Assembly: GCA_030831125.1 (NCBI GenBank) | Contig: JAURLQ010000089.1 | Span: forward strand, 62,001 to 126,000 | Length of the DNA: 64,000 nt | DNA from: Gammaproteobacteria bacterium | GTDB lineage: Bacteria; Pseudomonadota; Gammaproteobacteria; Pseudomonadales; Pseudohongiellaceae | Reading direction: 5' to 3' | Shown here: piece after piece, positions 24,355 through 36,947 of the stretch | Position numbering within the stretch: the stretch's first letter is position 1 | Layout of the letters: the number at the start of each line of letters is the position of its first letter | Position numbers and translations under genes: made by a program | The notes under the pieces: model-generated | Told to the model about the DNA's origin: nothing | Databases searched by the model: none | The model's input: the letters and a program-made list of their open reading frames with translations, nothing else

Positions 24355-25817
24355 TCAGGTCTTCTTTTTGAGCGGCCCGAAGCCTGATTGACTGCTTTTT
24401 GCTTCTGCTTTCTGCCTGACGGCTTTGCCTGGTGCTTTCCCGGGCATTTCCTTTGAGGGCTCCTTCAGAGGAGCAGCCTGCCCGGCATCCTTCTGCCGGG
24501 TACCATCACCGGATGGAGCGGGTGCGCGCCGCTTGCCAATGTTCTTGCGGAAAGTGTGACGCTGCTTTGCCTTGGGTACTGTTTTTTTCCTGGTCTTCTT
24601 GTCTTTTTCGGGCCTCTTCGTGGCTTTCTTCGCAGGTCCCTTGAAGCGGCTTTCATGACCGGCAATGATCCTTGTTTCCACTTCCAGCCTGAGATAGCGC
24701 TCTATGCTCTTGAACTGGTTCCATTCCTGGGTGCTACAAGGGTAATGGCCAGTCCACTCTCACCTGCCCTTCCGGTGCGCCCTATCCTGTGCACATGATC
24801 ATCGCCTGATCGGGCAACAGAATGGTTGATAACCAGGTCAACCCCTTTGACATCCAGTCCTCTGGCCGCAAGGTCTGTTGAGACAAGCACACGGATTACG
24901 CCGGTTCTGAACCAGTGCATTAGGCGTTTGCGGTCATCCTGGGACATTTCTCCGTGCAGGTATCCGATTTTCGACTTTTTGGCAGCCTCGGGTTTGCCTG
25001 CATTTCTTTTGTCGCGCTGACTCTGCAGGAAGGCACACAGGATTTCTGTCTGCTCTCTGGTATTGGTAAAAACCAGCGCTTTTTCAAATTCACTATTGGC
25101 CAGCAACCAGTTAACCAGTTGGTTCTTGTGGGCAGGGTCATCTGCAAGAATGACCTGCTGCTGGATACTTGCGTGTGCTGAGCGGTGCGTACCGACAGAA
25201 ATGATTTCAGGCTCACTCAGCACCTCGGCAGCAATCAGCCCTATCCCTTCATGTTCAAGGGTTGCCGATAGCAGAAAAACCTGTCGTTTGGGGGGGCAGG
25301 CCCCGACTATTGCAAGGACTTCATCCCTGAAGCCCATATCAAGCATCCTGTCAGCTTCATCCAGTACCAGAAATTCCAGATCATCCAGCACAATTGAACG
25401 CTTGTTGACATGCTCAAGAATGCGCCCGGGGGTACCCACGAGAATTTCTGGATTCTTGCGAATCATGGCTTTCTGCTCACCATAGGGAGTGCCTCCAACC
25501 ACAACGCCACTTGTGATCAGGGTGAAGCTGGCCAAATCCCTGCAGTGCTTTTCAACCTGCAGGGCCAGCTCTCGTGTTGGCAACAGGATCAGTACTCGTG
25601 TTGCCGTATCAGACTGGGGATTCTCGAGCATTTTGTGGAGTATTGGCAGAACGTAGGCTGCCGTTTTGCCACTACCGGTTTCCGCACTGGCCTGCATGTC
25701 CCTGCCCAGCAGAGCTTTGGGGATCAGTTCGTCCTGTATTGGCGTGGGACGACTCAGGTTCAAATGGTCAAGAGCCTTGAGCAAACGCTCATGCAATCCC
25801 AGTTCAGAAAAATTCAT
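24355..25817 (-). pseudogene. srmB: SrmB-type DEAD-box RNA helicase, interrupted by a single-base frameshift
   Basis: Start ATG 25817 (MNFSELGLHERLLKAL; the longer upstream frame has no helicase sequence). The Q motif (RPTPIQDELIPKALLGRD), Walker A (ASAETGSGKT), VLDEAD, SAT, HGEMSQDDR and HRIGRTGRAG motifs are intact through LAITLVAP. At 24729-24731 (CCC on the coding strand) the frame shifts: frame one stops at 24702, while the missing C-terminus (QEWNQFKSIERYLRLE, then a Lys-rich tail with RKNIGKRR) continues in the next frame to 24355. Restoring one base gives one 487-residue frame whose tail ends like E. coli SrmB. The helicase core would still be made. Either a real mutation or a base-calling error in a short C run. 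Confidence 0.85.
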
Positions 25818-25961
25818 GGATAATTTCTTGTGCAAGTATCCGCTCACAATGCTGCATTTGCATGAACGGGCAAGTGGGTGATTCAGGGGACTGTATTGTA
25901 TCCACCCGGTACAGCGAGGAGAATGGAAAACCCCACAATTATCAATCCAAACAGGTAAAAG

Positions 25962-26852
25962 ATGCAGGAAAAAGACCAGTTGTTTCGTTTCAGCTTCGGA
26001 AATCTTGATATCAGGGGCGAGCTGGTCTATCTGGACGACCTCTGGCATGAAGTACTGGCCAGACATCAATATCCGGAAAATGTCCGCTTGCAGCTTGGCA
26101 GCGGGCTGGCAGCTGCGGCCCTGCTTTCCCTCACCATCAAGTTCAAGGGCAAGCTTATACTGCAGGTTCAGGGCACGGGGCCATTGCGAAGTCTCGTGGT
26201 ACAAGCTGGCAGTGACGGATCATTACGGGGACTGGCAAGATGGGAAGGGCTGGTGCCTGAGGGCCCCCTGCAGGAAGTCTTTGGTGACAGTCGCATGCTG
26301 ATCACCGTGATTCCCGATGAGGGTGAGCGTTACCAGAGCATCGTTGAAATTTCAGGAAATTCCCTGGCTGAAGCAATAAATCGGTATTTTGACCAGTCTG
26401 AGCAGCTCCCCACATCATTACAGTTTCATGTCAGTGAAAAACGCACGGCAGGCCTGTTGCTGCAGGCACTGCCGCTTTCCACATCATCTGAAACCACTGC
26501 CGACCAGCGTCAGGAAGACTGGAAGAGGCTTAACATGCTGGCTGAAACCACAACGCCACAGGAAATTCTGGAGTTGCCGGCAACTGCACTTCTTCACAGG
26601 CTTTTTCATGAAGAAGAGGTCAAGCTGCACGGCACCAAACCCCTGCACTTTTCCTGTTCCTGCTCCCGGGAAAAAGTCAAAAACACACTTGTCACACTTG
26701 GCGAAGCTGAGCTCAGATCAATTCTGGAGGAAACCGGGCTGATAAAGGTTGACTGTGAATTCTGCAATACCCATTACAGTTTCGACGCTGCTGCAGTCGA
26801 CCGCTTGTGCCATGAAATGCAGCAGCCACCGCCTGATACCATACTGCACTGA
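25962..26852 (+). CDS. hslO: Redox-regulated chaperone Hsp33
   Basis: 296 residues from ATG 25962. The N-terminal half (RFSFGNLDIRGELVYLDD...LLSLTIKFKGKLILQVQGTGPLRSLVVQ) is the Hsp33 fold. The C-terminal zinc-binding redox switch has the CxC plus CxxC pattern, CSCSREKV and CEFCNTHYSF. Hsp33 becomes active when these cysteines are oxidised and prevents aggregation in the cytoplasm. It is divergent from the srmB gene and converges with trpEG. Confidence 0.95.
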   Translation: MQEKDQLFRFSFGNLDIRGELVYLDDLWHEVLARHQYPENVRLQLGSGLAAAALLSLTIKFKGKLILQVQGTGPLRSLVVQAGSDGSLRGLARWEGLVPEGPLQEVFGDSRMLITVIPDEGERYQSIVEISGNSLAEAINRYFDQSEQLPTSLQFHVSEKRTAGLLLQALPLSTSSETTADQRQEDWKRLNMLAETTTPQEILELPATALLHRLFHEEEVKLHGTKPLHFSCSCSREKVKNTLVTLGEAELRSILEETGLIKVDCEFCNTHYSFDAAAVDRLCHEMQQPPPDTILH

Positions 26853-26869
26853 CTTCTGATTATTTCATT

Positions 26870-29086
26870 TCAGCCTGCCTTTCTCGTGGTCACTGGCAAA
26901 ATGCCTGCCAGGTTAGGTGCATTTTTTACATCAAGCTTCCTCAACACATTACCTACCAGCATACGACCAGAATCACCCTGCATTGTCATGATTGACTCAG
27001 GATGGAACTGTACTGCAGAGACCGGAAGATTCCTGTGCTGTATGGCCATGATTTCACCATCCTCACTGTGGGCTGTGACCTGCAACTCATCAGGAAGGCT
27101 GTCTGCCACCAGTGAGTGGTAACGACCGACTTGCAGTTCCCCCTGCAGCCCCTCAAAAAGCGCTCCCTCGAAATGACTGAGCAATGAAGGCTTGCCGTGA
27201 ACCGGCGCTGACATCAACCTGAGACTTCCTCCGAAATACTCAACAATCCCCTGCAGTCCCAGGCACACGCCGAACAAGGACACTTCCCTGCCCAGACACA
27301 ATTCGATGGTCCGGGACATGGCAAAGTCACCCGGCCGCCCCGGCCCCGGTGAAAGAACTACCAACTGCGGATCAAAATCGTCCAGCGCCTGTTCTACAGT
27401 GCCCGGTCTTACGGTACTTACAATGGCCCCATATTCCCTGAAATACGAAGAAAGAGTGTGTACGAATGAATCCTGATGATCGACCATCAAGACTCTGGTC
27501 CTGCACACATGCTGCACCAACTTTTTCGCTGCCTTCGAGAACGGATTCGTGTTTGCTCTCAAGGCAAACAGCATAGCCTCTGCCTTGAGTCGCGTCTCTG
27601 CCTCTTCAGCAATGGGGTCAGAATCGGCAAGCAGGGTGGCGCCAGCTCTCACCTGCGCAATACCATTACTGATCTGTATTGTGCGAATTGTCAGGCCGGT
27701 ATTGAGATCACCATTGAAATTCAGGCAACCCATGGCCCCGCCATACCAGCGCCTGGGACTGCGTTCATGATCCTCAATGAACTGTATGGCAGCCTGTTTG
27801 GGCGCCCCGGTTACTGTTACGGCCCAGGCATGGGAAAGAAATGCATCCAGTGCATCCTTGCCCTCCATCAGCCTGCCTTCAACATGATCTACCGTGTGTA
27901 TAAGCCTTGAGTAGAGCTCTATCTGCCGTCGCCCGATAACTTTCACACTGCCGGGCTCACAAACGCGGCTCTTGTCATTGCGATCCACATCCGTACACAT
28001 GGAAAGCTCCGCCTCGTCCTTGGCAGAGTTCAGCAATTTGCGTATCTGCTGTGCATCCTCTACTGCGTTTTCTCCCCGTCTGATAGTCCCGGAAATCGGG
28101 CAGGTTTCCACCCGCGTACCACGAACGCGCACAAACATCTCAGGCGATGCTGCCACCAGATATTCCTGCTGACCCAGATTCATCAGGGCGCCGTAAGGCG
28201 CAGGGTTCTGGCTTTGCAGTCGCCTGAAAACTGTAGCCGGATCATCTTTACAGGAGGCGCTGAAAGTCTGTCCTGGCACTGTTTCAAAAAGGTCTCCACG
28301 ACGGAAGTACGCCAGAGCCTTGCGAACTGTCTCTGCATACGCGCCCGGCTCATGGTCACATTCTGATACCGTGTCGGTATTGTCGGCAAACAGGAATGGC
28401 TCGTGTAAGGTTTGTCTGGGCAGTCCTTGTGTTGAAGTGGTACCTGATGACAGTGGGAACTCAAAGTCGTAATAGTATTGCCTGGCAGTTTCCCTGGCAT
28501 GATCAACTACTAATAGCGTATCAGGCAGGTAAAGCAGCAGATTACGCTCATCTCCACTCCGGGGGATTTGCCGCCGCACATCCTCGAACTGGAAGGCAAG
28601 CTCATATCCAAAGGCCCCGTACAAGCCGAGAAAACTGTCTTCTGCACTGTAAAAAGCATTGATGATTGTACGCAATACAGTAAACACTGAGCACTGACGG
28701 GTGCGATCTTCTTCATAGATCACAGCCTCTGGCGCTTTTATGTTCAGGTGTGATCGCTCAACGCCGGCATCAAAACTCGCAACATCGGAATCATCTGCAA
28801 GCAGGCTGTTGAGAAAGGCAAGGATTACCTCTCCACGTTGATTGAGCGCCTCAAAAGTCATGGTCCGCTCGACGGCACTGATTCGCAGCGGCGGGTCAGA
28901 AAACCCGATATCCCAACGACTGTAACGCCCGGGAAATTCGATGCCCGAACTCAACAGTACTCCGGGAGCATCATTAAGCTTTCTCGCGAGCGTCGCTACA
29001 GCAGTGCCATAGTCTCCTGCAGTAGCTGCACGATAGATACCTGCGCCTTTTGAAGTCAGGTAATGGCTGGTTGGCATGGTCTGCAT
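26870..29086 (-). CDS. trpE(G): Fused anthranilate synthase TrpEG
   Basis: 738 residues from ATG 29086 with AAGGAG upstream. Residues ~1-510 are the chorismate-using TrpE part (PISGTIRRGENAVEDAQQ, LLNSAKDEAELSMCTDVDRNDKSRVC, HAWAVTVTGAPKQAAI, GLTIRTIQ). Residues ~525-725 are a class I glutamine amidotransferase with catalytic Cys in LFGVCLGLQG and the His-Glu pair in QFHPES. It makes anthranilate, the first step of tryptophan synthesis, using its own ammonia channel. Single-chain TrpE(G) is best known from Rhizobiales and Azospirillum; most Gammaproteobacteria have separate trpE and trpG. A leader peptide with three Trp codons and an attenuator precede it. No other trp gene is near. Confidence 0.93.
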   Translation of the reverse strand: MQTMPTSHYLTSKGAGIYRAATAGDYGTAVATLARKLNDAPGVLLSSGIEFPGRYSRWDIGFSDPPLRISAVERTMTFEALNQRGEVILAFLNSLLADDSDVASFDAGVERSHLNIKAPEAVIYEEDRTRQCSVFTVLRTIINAFYSAEDSFLGLYGAFGYELAFQFEDVRRQIPRSGDERNLLLYLPDTLLVVDHARETARQYYYDFEFPLSSGTTSTQGLPRQTLHEPFLFADNTDTVSECDHEPGAYAETVRKALAYFRRGDLFETVPGQTFSASCKDDPATVFRRLQSQNPAPYGALMNLGQQEYLVAASPEMFVRVRGTRVETCPISGTIRRGENAVEDAQQIRKLLNSAKDEAELSMCTDVDRNDKSRVCEPGSVKVIGRRQIELYSRLIHTVDHVEGRLMEGKDALDAFLSHAWAVTVTGAPKQAAIQFIEDHERSPRRWYGGAMGCLNFNGDLNTGLTIRTIQISNGIAQVRAGATLLADSDPIAEEAETRLKAEAMLFALRANTNPFSKAAKKLVQHVCRTRVLMVDHQDSFVHTLSSYFREYGAIVSTVRPGTVEQALDDFDPQLVVLSPGPGRPGDFAMSRTIELCLGREVSLFGVCLGLQGIVEYFGGSLRLMSAPVHGKPSLLSHFEGALFEGLQGELQVGRYHSLVADSLPDELQVTAHSEDGEIMAIQHRNLPVSAVQFHPESIMTMQGDSGRMLVGNVLRKLDVKNAPNLAGILPVTTRKAG

Positions 29087-29137
29087 TGTGGTTCTCCTTC
29101 AGCGTCAGATTAAGGGCGGACCGCAATGTTTTTTCAG

Positions 29138-29173
29138 AAAACAAAAAGGCCGCCTTGTTGCCTGGGCGGCCTT
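29138..29173 (-). terminator. Transcription attenuator upstream of trpEG
   Basis: On the minus strand, a 9-bp stem AAGGCCGCC / GGCGGCCTT with a ~10-base loop is followed by a U-rich run (TTTTTGTTTT) about 50 bases before trpEG. The 3' arm is also complementary to the GGCCGCCTT segment near the end of the leader ORF, which could form a competing antiterminator when a ribosome stalls at the Trp codons. Confidence 0.85.
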
Positions 29174-29228
29174 CGTAAATTCAGTTCACAACAGTGCAGG
29201 AAGCAGATTGATTCTGCCCCTGACCTGA

Positions 29229-29300
29229 TCAGTCAAGGCGGCCCGGGTTTGAGGGCCACCACCACTGCTGCTGTAATCTTGTTGTTTGCATAGTCGGCAT
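29229..29300 (-). CDS. trpL: trp leader peptide with three consecutive Trp codons
   Basis: A 23-codon frame from ATG 29300 (AAAGG at good spacing; a second in-frame ATG at 29291) to TGA 29229. It carries QQQWWWPSNPG: three TGG codons in a row at 29256-29264, immediately before a GGCCC that can pair with the following GGGCC. It is followed about 55 bases later by an intrinsic terminator and then trpEG. This is the classical arrangement for ribosome-mediated tryptophan attenuation, similar to the Trp-Trp-Trp leaders known before rhizobial trpE(G). Confidence 0.88.
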   Translation of the reverse strand: MPTMQTTRLQQQWWWPSNPGRLD

Positions 29301-29381
29301 CTTGCCTTTGCTGTCATCAACTGTCAATCAGGGAACCACTGCTTCATTCAGGAGTATCCCGACCAATTCAGAACAGGTTTA

Positions 29382-36698: not shown

Positions 36699-36701
36699 GC
36701 A

Positions 36702-36877
36702 TCTCCCTGGGGTACTTGCCAGTCGGACGAGTTCTTGAGCCGATATCTTTGATCCGGAGGCTTTGCCCAATGGCGTCAGTGTGCATGTCCGCTTTGCGGA
36801 AAGCCTTAGACGCCGGACTGGCCACCACCTGAACCTTACGGTTCAGGGCAAGTTTGACAGCGGTATTCCCGGGGATA
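36702..36877 (+). ncRNA. ssrS: 6S RNA
   Basis: About 176 bases between zapA and the 5-formyl-THF cyclo-ligase gene, the conserved ssrS position. The ends pair (ATCTCCCTGGGGTACTTG with CGGTATTCCCGGGGAT). Inside are GAGCCGATAT, the GTGTGCATG...CGGAAAGCCTTA block and the hairpin CCTGAACCTTACGGTTCAGG, all shared with E. coli 6S RNA. It binds sigma-70 RNA polymerase holoenzyme and down-regulates transcription in stationary phase. Exact ends are estimates. Confidence 0.92.
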
Positions 36878-36947
36878 TTTTTACTTGCCTGTATTGCCTC
36901 TGCCAGTTCCACGCCTGTCCTGAAATTTCCAGATCGAGCCTGCAAAC

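Follow-up and report, generated by a model that had tools for sequence, protein, structure and literature searches.

Does a small open reading frame with three tandem tryptophan codons, lying upstream of a fused anthranilate synthase gene (trpEG), belong to an attenuator that controls this gene, and how did the two come to lie in a gammaproteobacterial genome? The window (the whole stretch of DNA that was analysed, 64,000 nucleotides) carries on its minus strand, from 29327 to 29084 and in this order, a promoter, the small reading frame with its Trp codons, a GC-rich hairpin that ends in a U-run, and the Shine-Dalgarno (SD) sequence of trpEG. A sequence-only reading of this locus had proposed an attenuated trpEG that was transferred together with its control element. 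Our analysis points to a tryptophan-responsive, ribosome-mediated attenuator that would control trpEG as a second anthranilate synthase, with a probability of roughly 0.87. The leader, the promoter geometry, the helices with their conservation and covariation, and the association with trpEG can be read from the sequence itself.

The trpEG gene and its leader

The features of the locus are as follows.

26870-29086, minus strand: trpEG, fused anthranilate synthase of 738 aa; a single-gene unit with the amidotransferase motifs GVCLG and QFHPES
29299-29327, minus strand: sigma-70-type promoter; -35 box TTGACA at 29327-29322, 17-nt spacer, -10 box CAAGAT at 29304-29299, 7 nt before the leader ATG
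29229-29291, minus strand: trpL leader peptide MQTTRLQQQWWWPSNPGRLD; 20 codons plus stop, ATG at 29291-29289, predicted leaderless translation
29256-29264, minus strand: putative Trp stall site TGGTGGTGG, three consecutive Trp codons; WW or WWW is kept in relatives
29253-29260, minus strand: segment 1 GGUGGCCC; pairs with segment 2 and would lie under the stalled ribosome; helix 1:2 is 92% paired in 43 relatives
29235-29244, minus strand: segment 2 GGGCCGCCUU; able to pair with segment 1, 3 or 4
29162-29173, minus strand: segment 3 AAGGCCGCCCAG; 5' arm of the terminator and antiterminator partner of segment 2; helix 3:4 is 99% paired in 43 relatives
29146-29154, minus strand: segment 4 GGCGGCCUU; 3' arm of the terminator and, when free, predicted partner of segment 5 (see below)
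29138-29147, minus strand: the intrinsic terminator's U-run, UUUUUGUUUU; T at 7 of its first 8 positions, and present in all 5 window-clade members

The product of trpEG matches two profiles over its full length and above their curated cut-offs, NCBIfam NF010081 (1054 bits, cut-off 645) and TIGR01815 (1006.9 bits, cut-off 739.15), which bears out a single-chain TrpEG behind the attenuator. The same genome holds a separate trpE-trpG-trpC cluster directly after rpe (locus L162, contig C101), so that trpEG is a second anthranilate synthase. The cluster follows rpe with overlapping stop and start codons, leaving no space for a leader, trpD lies apart from it on contig C60, and the genome contained no match to the TrpR repressor. 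Because the rpe-linked cluster has no such leader, trpEG would serve as a starvation-induced supplement.

Two further observations were made in the window. A 6S RNA (RF00013) lies at 36701-36879 on the plus strand (84.5 bits) and nothing else in the window reaches an Rfam gathering score. Downstream of trpEG, the first ~80 codons of a helicase reading frame (24702-26204, minus strand) run antisense within hslO (25962-26852, plus strand); the true start of the helicase is probably further in, because helicase profiles match only from residue ~130.

Three consecutive Trp codons are indeed present at 29264-29256 on the minus strand, although such a run is by itself not unusual (2 in the window vs 1.09 expected by chance). 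The leader had been read as 23 codons long; the Trp-Trp-Trp leader is real, but the start chosen for it, the ATG at 29300-29298, overlaps the -10 hexamer. We place the start nine bases downstream, giving 20 codons, because the promoter TTGACA-17-CAAGAT lies 7 nt before this second ATG. The choice fits both the promoter and the relatives, one of which (L034) has MQTTNFKKQWWWLATSGRLD with a nearly identical promoter geometry. Among non-rhizobial leaders, the -35 box begins TTGAC in 57 of 59, with spacers of 17-18 nt and gaps of 6-9 nt to the ATG, and a promoter score of at least 8 was reached by 75% of leader ATGs vs 1.6% of other ATGs. An SD-like motif precedes the leader ATG in just 1 of 59 relatives, while all 59 have a pyrimidine at -1. 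From the promoter geometry and the absence of an SD, the trpL transcript is predicted to be leaderless. By its geometry, the locus thus has what marks a leaderless trpL of the rhizobial type, a promoter that places the start at the trpL ATG without an SD; in S. meliloti, transcription of trpE(G) is reported to begin at the trpL ATG and to be attenuated (PMC7298713).

The terminator and U-run previously placed at 29138-29173, ahead of the single-chain trpEG, were confirmed with their coordinates, the stem spanning 29174-29145 and the U-run 29147-29138 on the minus strand. A simple terminator scan did not report this hairpin because its upper limit for the loop was 8 nt. For the leader RNA (29291-29137), the folding energy is -66.5 kcal/mol vs an average of -47.3 kcal/mol over shuffles (z = -4.9; 0 of 200 shuffles). 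Within it, segment 2 can pair with segment 1 at the Trp codons (-19.0 kcal/mol), with segment 3 (-19.0 kcal/mol) or with segment 4 (-23.4 kcal/mol), and helix 3:4 has an energy of -20.4 kcal/mol. The pairing of a leader segment with the 3' arm of the terminator, already noticed in the sequence-only reading, is therefore real (2:4), and a classical 2:3 antiterminator is present besides.

Which of these helices folds depends on the position of the ribosome, for which we assumed a footprint extending 12 nt downstream of the A site. Whichever of the three Trp codons the footprint occupies, 2:3 folds in the nascent RNA and 2:4 in the full leader. With the footprint at the trpL stop codon, the 3:4 terminator folds, and without a ribosome 1:2 and the terminator fold together. 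The locus thus combines the elements of a leader-peptide attenuator: a reading frame with consecutive codons for one amino acid, exclusive helices (1:2, 2:3 and 3:4) set by ribosome position, and a U-tailed terminator before the gene.

The mechanism that we infer takes in the start of transcription, ribosome stalling and termination, together with masking of the SD and the role in physiology. In it, RNA polymerase would start at the trpL ATG or within 1-2 bases of it, so that the leader would be translated from a leaderless 5' end. When charged tRNA-Trp is ample, the ribosome would reach the trpL stop codon and cover segment 2, allowing the U-tailed 3:4 terminator to form. When it is scarce, the ribosome would stall on the three Trp codons and cover segment 1, leaving segment 2 to pair with segment 3 (or 4), and no terminator would form.

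Conservation of the element and origin of trpEG

A WW leader was found at 72 of 96 TrpEG loci (distinct loci with enough upstream sequence) vs 10 of 401 control upstream regions, two control matches that were trpEG itself having been set aside. The 24 of 96 loci where an ATG-started WW leader was absent lie mostly outside the family. In 43 family leaders (A2), 95% of cells are paired, with 20 double-change cells vs 4.7 in shuffles, and slid controls reach at most 57%. Lack of conservation of the leader reading frame or stem in close relatives had been named as grounds for refuting the attenuator; both are kept, in the form of WW leaders and paired helices.

A covariance search had also been called for, and a family model (R1) recovers elements before trpEG: 60 at E ≤1e-4 in 59 of 98 family genomes, a count that is in part by construction because the 43 leaders served as training. 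R1 also matches leaders outside the training set (L072, L095, L043 and L067). By comparison of coordinates, each R1 element lies directly upstream of trpEG, except at contig ends (G005, G006 and G664), and the element was found only with trpEG. The model gave no match at the housekeeping trp loci L162 and L167, and none in G722, a family relative that has a full trpEG. Gene and control element stay together across the family, as the sequence-only reading had supposed. One genome (G709) has two trpEG copies (contigs C94 and C16), each with its own attenuator before it.

This conservation bears on two other explanations of the locus. The first is that a Trp-rich small reading frame lies by coincidence next to a terminator that is unrelated to it and belongs to the upstream porin gene; chance by itself predicts about one TGGTGGTGG per window, but promoter, leader, paired helices and position are conserved in dozens of diverged relatives, and we consider coincidence hardly credible. 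The second is that the terminated leader RNA, the peptide or both act mainly in trans, with cis control of trpEG being secondary. In S. meliloti, rnTrpL destabilises trpDC mRNA, and the peptide peTrpL has its own targets (PMC7298713, PMC7143759). The layout here is the same, and a leaderless trpL with its terminator would give an RNA of ~150 nt. On the other hand, the confinement of the element to trpEG argues against a main role in trans, as does the variation of the leader peptide outside WW, which is likewise seen among rhizobia; we hold such a role to be unlikely and prefer control of trpEG in cis.

The proposed transfer of trpEG with its control element, in the form of a recent acquisition of trpL-trpEG by the window lineage from an alphaproteobacterium, has some points in its favour. 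Of 274 genomes sampled from the whole class, just 6 have TrpEG, and its occurrence within the genus is patchy. A TrpEG phylogeny had been suggested as a check. Placing the window clade with rhizobial TrpEG lowers the log-likelihood by 23 units and is not rejected (AU p = 0.22); the unrooted tree has every row of the family on the same side of a branch with an SH-aLRT of 97. Within the family, TrpEG occurs in 63 of 99 genomes and 7 of 8 genera. In a draw across the phylum, 13 of 14 matches came from the same phylum and another class, presumably alphaproteobacteria. Sister genus g2 (L085) shares the window's gene order, ubiH - ubi - porin - trpEG - helicase - ECF sigma - phoB, and hslO adjoins trpEG in a further genus (L038, L041, L086 and L093). 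The patchiness within the genus is accounted for by loss, since in G004 and G007 hslO sits directly beside ubi and trpEG is missing, and the trpEG of G010 is fragmented.

The shared gene order, the family-wide presence and the one-sided placement in the tree indicate that trpEG is old in the family. A recent transfer is thus unsupported and, in our view, very improbable; an ancient transfer of trpEG at or above family level may have occurred. The broken copy of the same genus (L171, G010:C49) has its pieces in several frames and a weak attenuator match upstream, from decay or poor assembly.

A predicted second switch at the trpEG ribosome-binding site

Between the terminator and trpEG, two further segments come into play.

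29112-29128, minus strand: segment 5 CAUUGCGGUCCGCCCUU; predicted to pair with segment 4 (GG.CCGCC, 29122-29115) or with the SD/start region (CAUUG, GGU, CCUU)
29084-29099, minus strand: segment 6, the SD AAGGAG at 29099-29094 plus the trpEG AUG; predicted to be hidden by segment 5

Freeing segment 4 raises the predicted opening of the SD 2^7.3- to 2^15.6-fold in 5 of 5 window-clade leaders. Against shuffles of the spacer that keep its composition (pooled null median 0.3), the five p-values are 0.03, 0.07, 0, 0 and 0, and they are not independent because the sequences are related. In group g5, 19 of the 23 leaders show the same switch at p ≤0.05; it was not seen in g4, nor in 6 of 7 other leaders, L072 being the exception. 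If segment 3 is freed instead, the SD stays closed in most cases tested. For g4 (Pseudohongiella), freeing either segment 4 or segment 3 gave no consistent SD switch. Some g4 leaders (L082, L015, L079 and L092) have hairpins that hide the SD before trpEG, without an attenuator arm that consistently opens them.

The two helices of segment 5 differ in their covariation. Over 28 g5 sequences, helix 4:5 is 95% paired vs 42-55% in slid controls and is largely kept through G-U changes. Helix 5:6 in g5, at 67.7% paired, is not above shuffles, so that SD masking rests on folding rather than covariation. Masking is weak in some members (for the window alone, p(low) = 0.23), and the window SD is open just 5% (0.05) in the predicted ON state. 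From this low opening and the lack of covariation support for 5:6, we grade the second switch as plausible.

Members of g5 (L046-L066, L097, L136 and others) have retained the 3:4 hairpin as well as the WW codons, have no U-run, and can form a conserved alternative helix 4:5 from GAGTTGTGGCG with CGCCATAACTC. Their tails are TATTGCTC-like, with the U-run gone, whereas the window clade has 6-7 T of 8. The U-run has been lost in two sister genera, and the arm-freeing switch is kept in one of them, g5. Loss of the U-run with the arm switch retained suggests a shift from transcriptional to translational attenuation.

For the window, these results have to be weighed against plain transcriptional attenuation, in which control lies entirely with the terminator and RNA structure at the trpEG ribosome-binding site is without function. 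The strong stem and full U-run of the window clade fit such a mechanism, folding at different ribosome positions alone already yields an on/off switch, and the SD masking of the window itself is not significant. The SD-opening switch in all five window-clade leaders speaks against it, however, as does the 4:5 pairing in g5 sequences that have no U-run, and we regard it as a possible account with a little less than an even chance.

In the proposed mechanism, we give the added SD switch about even odds. In a read-through transcript, segment 5 could hide the trpEG SD; when segment 4 is free, it could pair with segment 5, which would open the ribosome-binding site and allow TrpEG to be made. The trp leader would then have two serial outputs, antitermination followed by opening of the trpEG ribosome-binding site via 4:5, with g5 working by translation alone and the regulatory platform having changed within the family; the chances for and against this model appear balanced. 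The element would be an old, family-wide trp attenuator, which may switch translation besides transcription. Within the family, the regulator appears to shift from transcription termination to masking of the ribosome-binding site; this would form a natural series along which the change of platform could be tested stepwise. The family genomes also carry an anthranilate synthase without an attenuator.

Comparison with known trp leaders

In the literature that we found, it is in rhizobia that a fused TrpE(G) is described as controlled by a leaderless trpL (PMC7298713, PMC7143759); this gammaproteobacterial leader may have been sighted earlier. Our results would add a leaderless trpL-trpEG that is also family-wide and vertically kept in the gammaproteobacterial family that holds Pseudohongiella. 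The window element appears to be a variant of ribosome-mediated trp attenuation that lies outside the Rfam models at their gathering scores.

Actinobacterial trp attenuators contain UGG repeats and gGCC-rGCy-GGCC triples, and the window leader resembles them in its UGG repeats and three-way GGCC pairing (PMC1262725). Unlike the window element, they precede trp operons and have poly-U terminators throughout, and in actinobacteria SD masking has been described for ileS T-boxes, not for trp leaders (PMC1262725). At gathering score, Rfam had no match at the window's leader locus.

In the enterobacterial trp leader, the ribosome stalls on Trp codons, alternative hairpins form, and an intrinsic terminator ends transcription. 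The window element would follow the same logic, although the corresponding Rfam model, Trp_leader, was not among the matches in the window up to E = 10. Unlike the enterobacterial leader, it controls, as we read it, a lone trpEG in a genome where no TrpR was found, and its peptide is predicted to be leaderless rather than SD-led.

Of the known elements, the rhizobial trpL-trpE(G) attenuator (S. meliloti rnTrpL/peTrpL; Rfam RF02552, RcsR1) comes closest; RcsR1 is reported to occupy the same position as rnTrpL (PMC7143759). The two share the TrpE(G) family, consecutive Trp codons, a leaderless start at the trpL ATG (predicted in the window), and overlapping helices with a terminator. The window element differs in its host class, its distinct leader peptide, its consensus -35 box and its predicted SD-masking switch, which was not seen in the rhizobial-type leaders L123 and L124. 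RcsR1 aligns with the window in register at 18.4 bits vs a gathering score of 60, with the best E-value in the window (0.18), and as a positive control it covers the trpL of L114 and L115 (same phylum, other class) with 114.5 and 100.3 bits. By the rule of Rfam the window element is thus not a member of RcsR1, yet judged by its sequence it would work like one.
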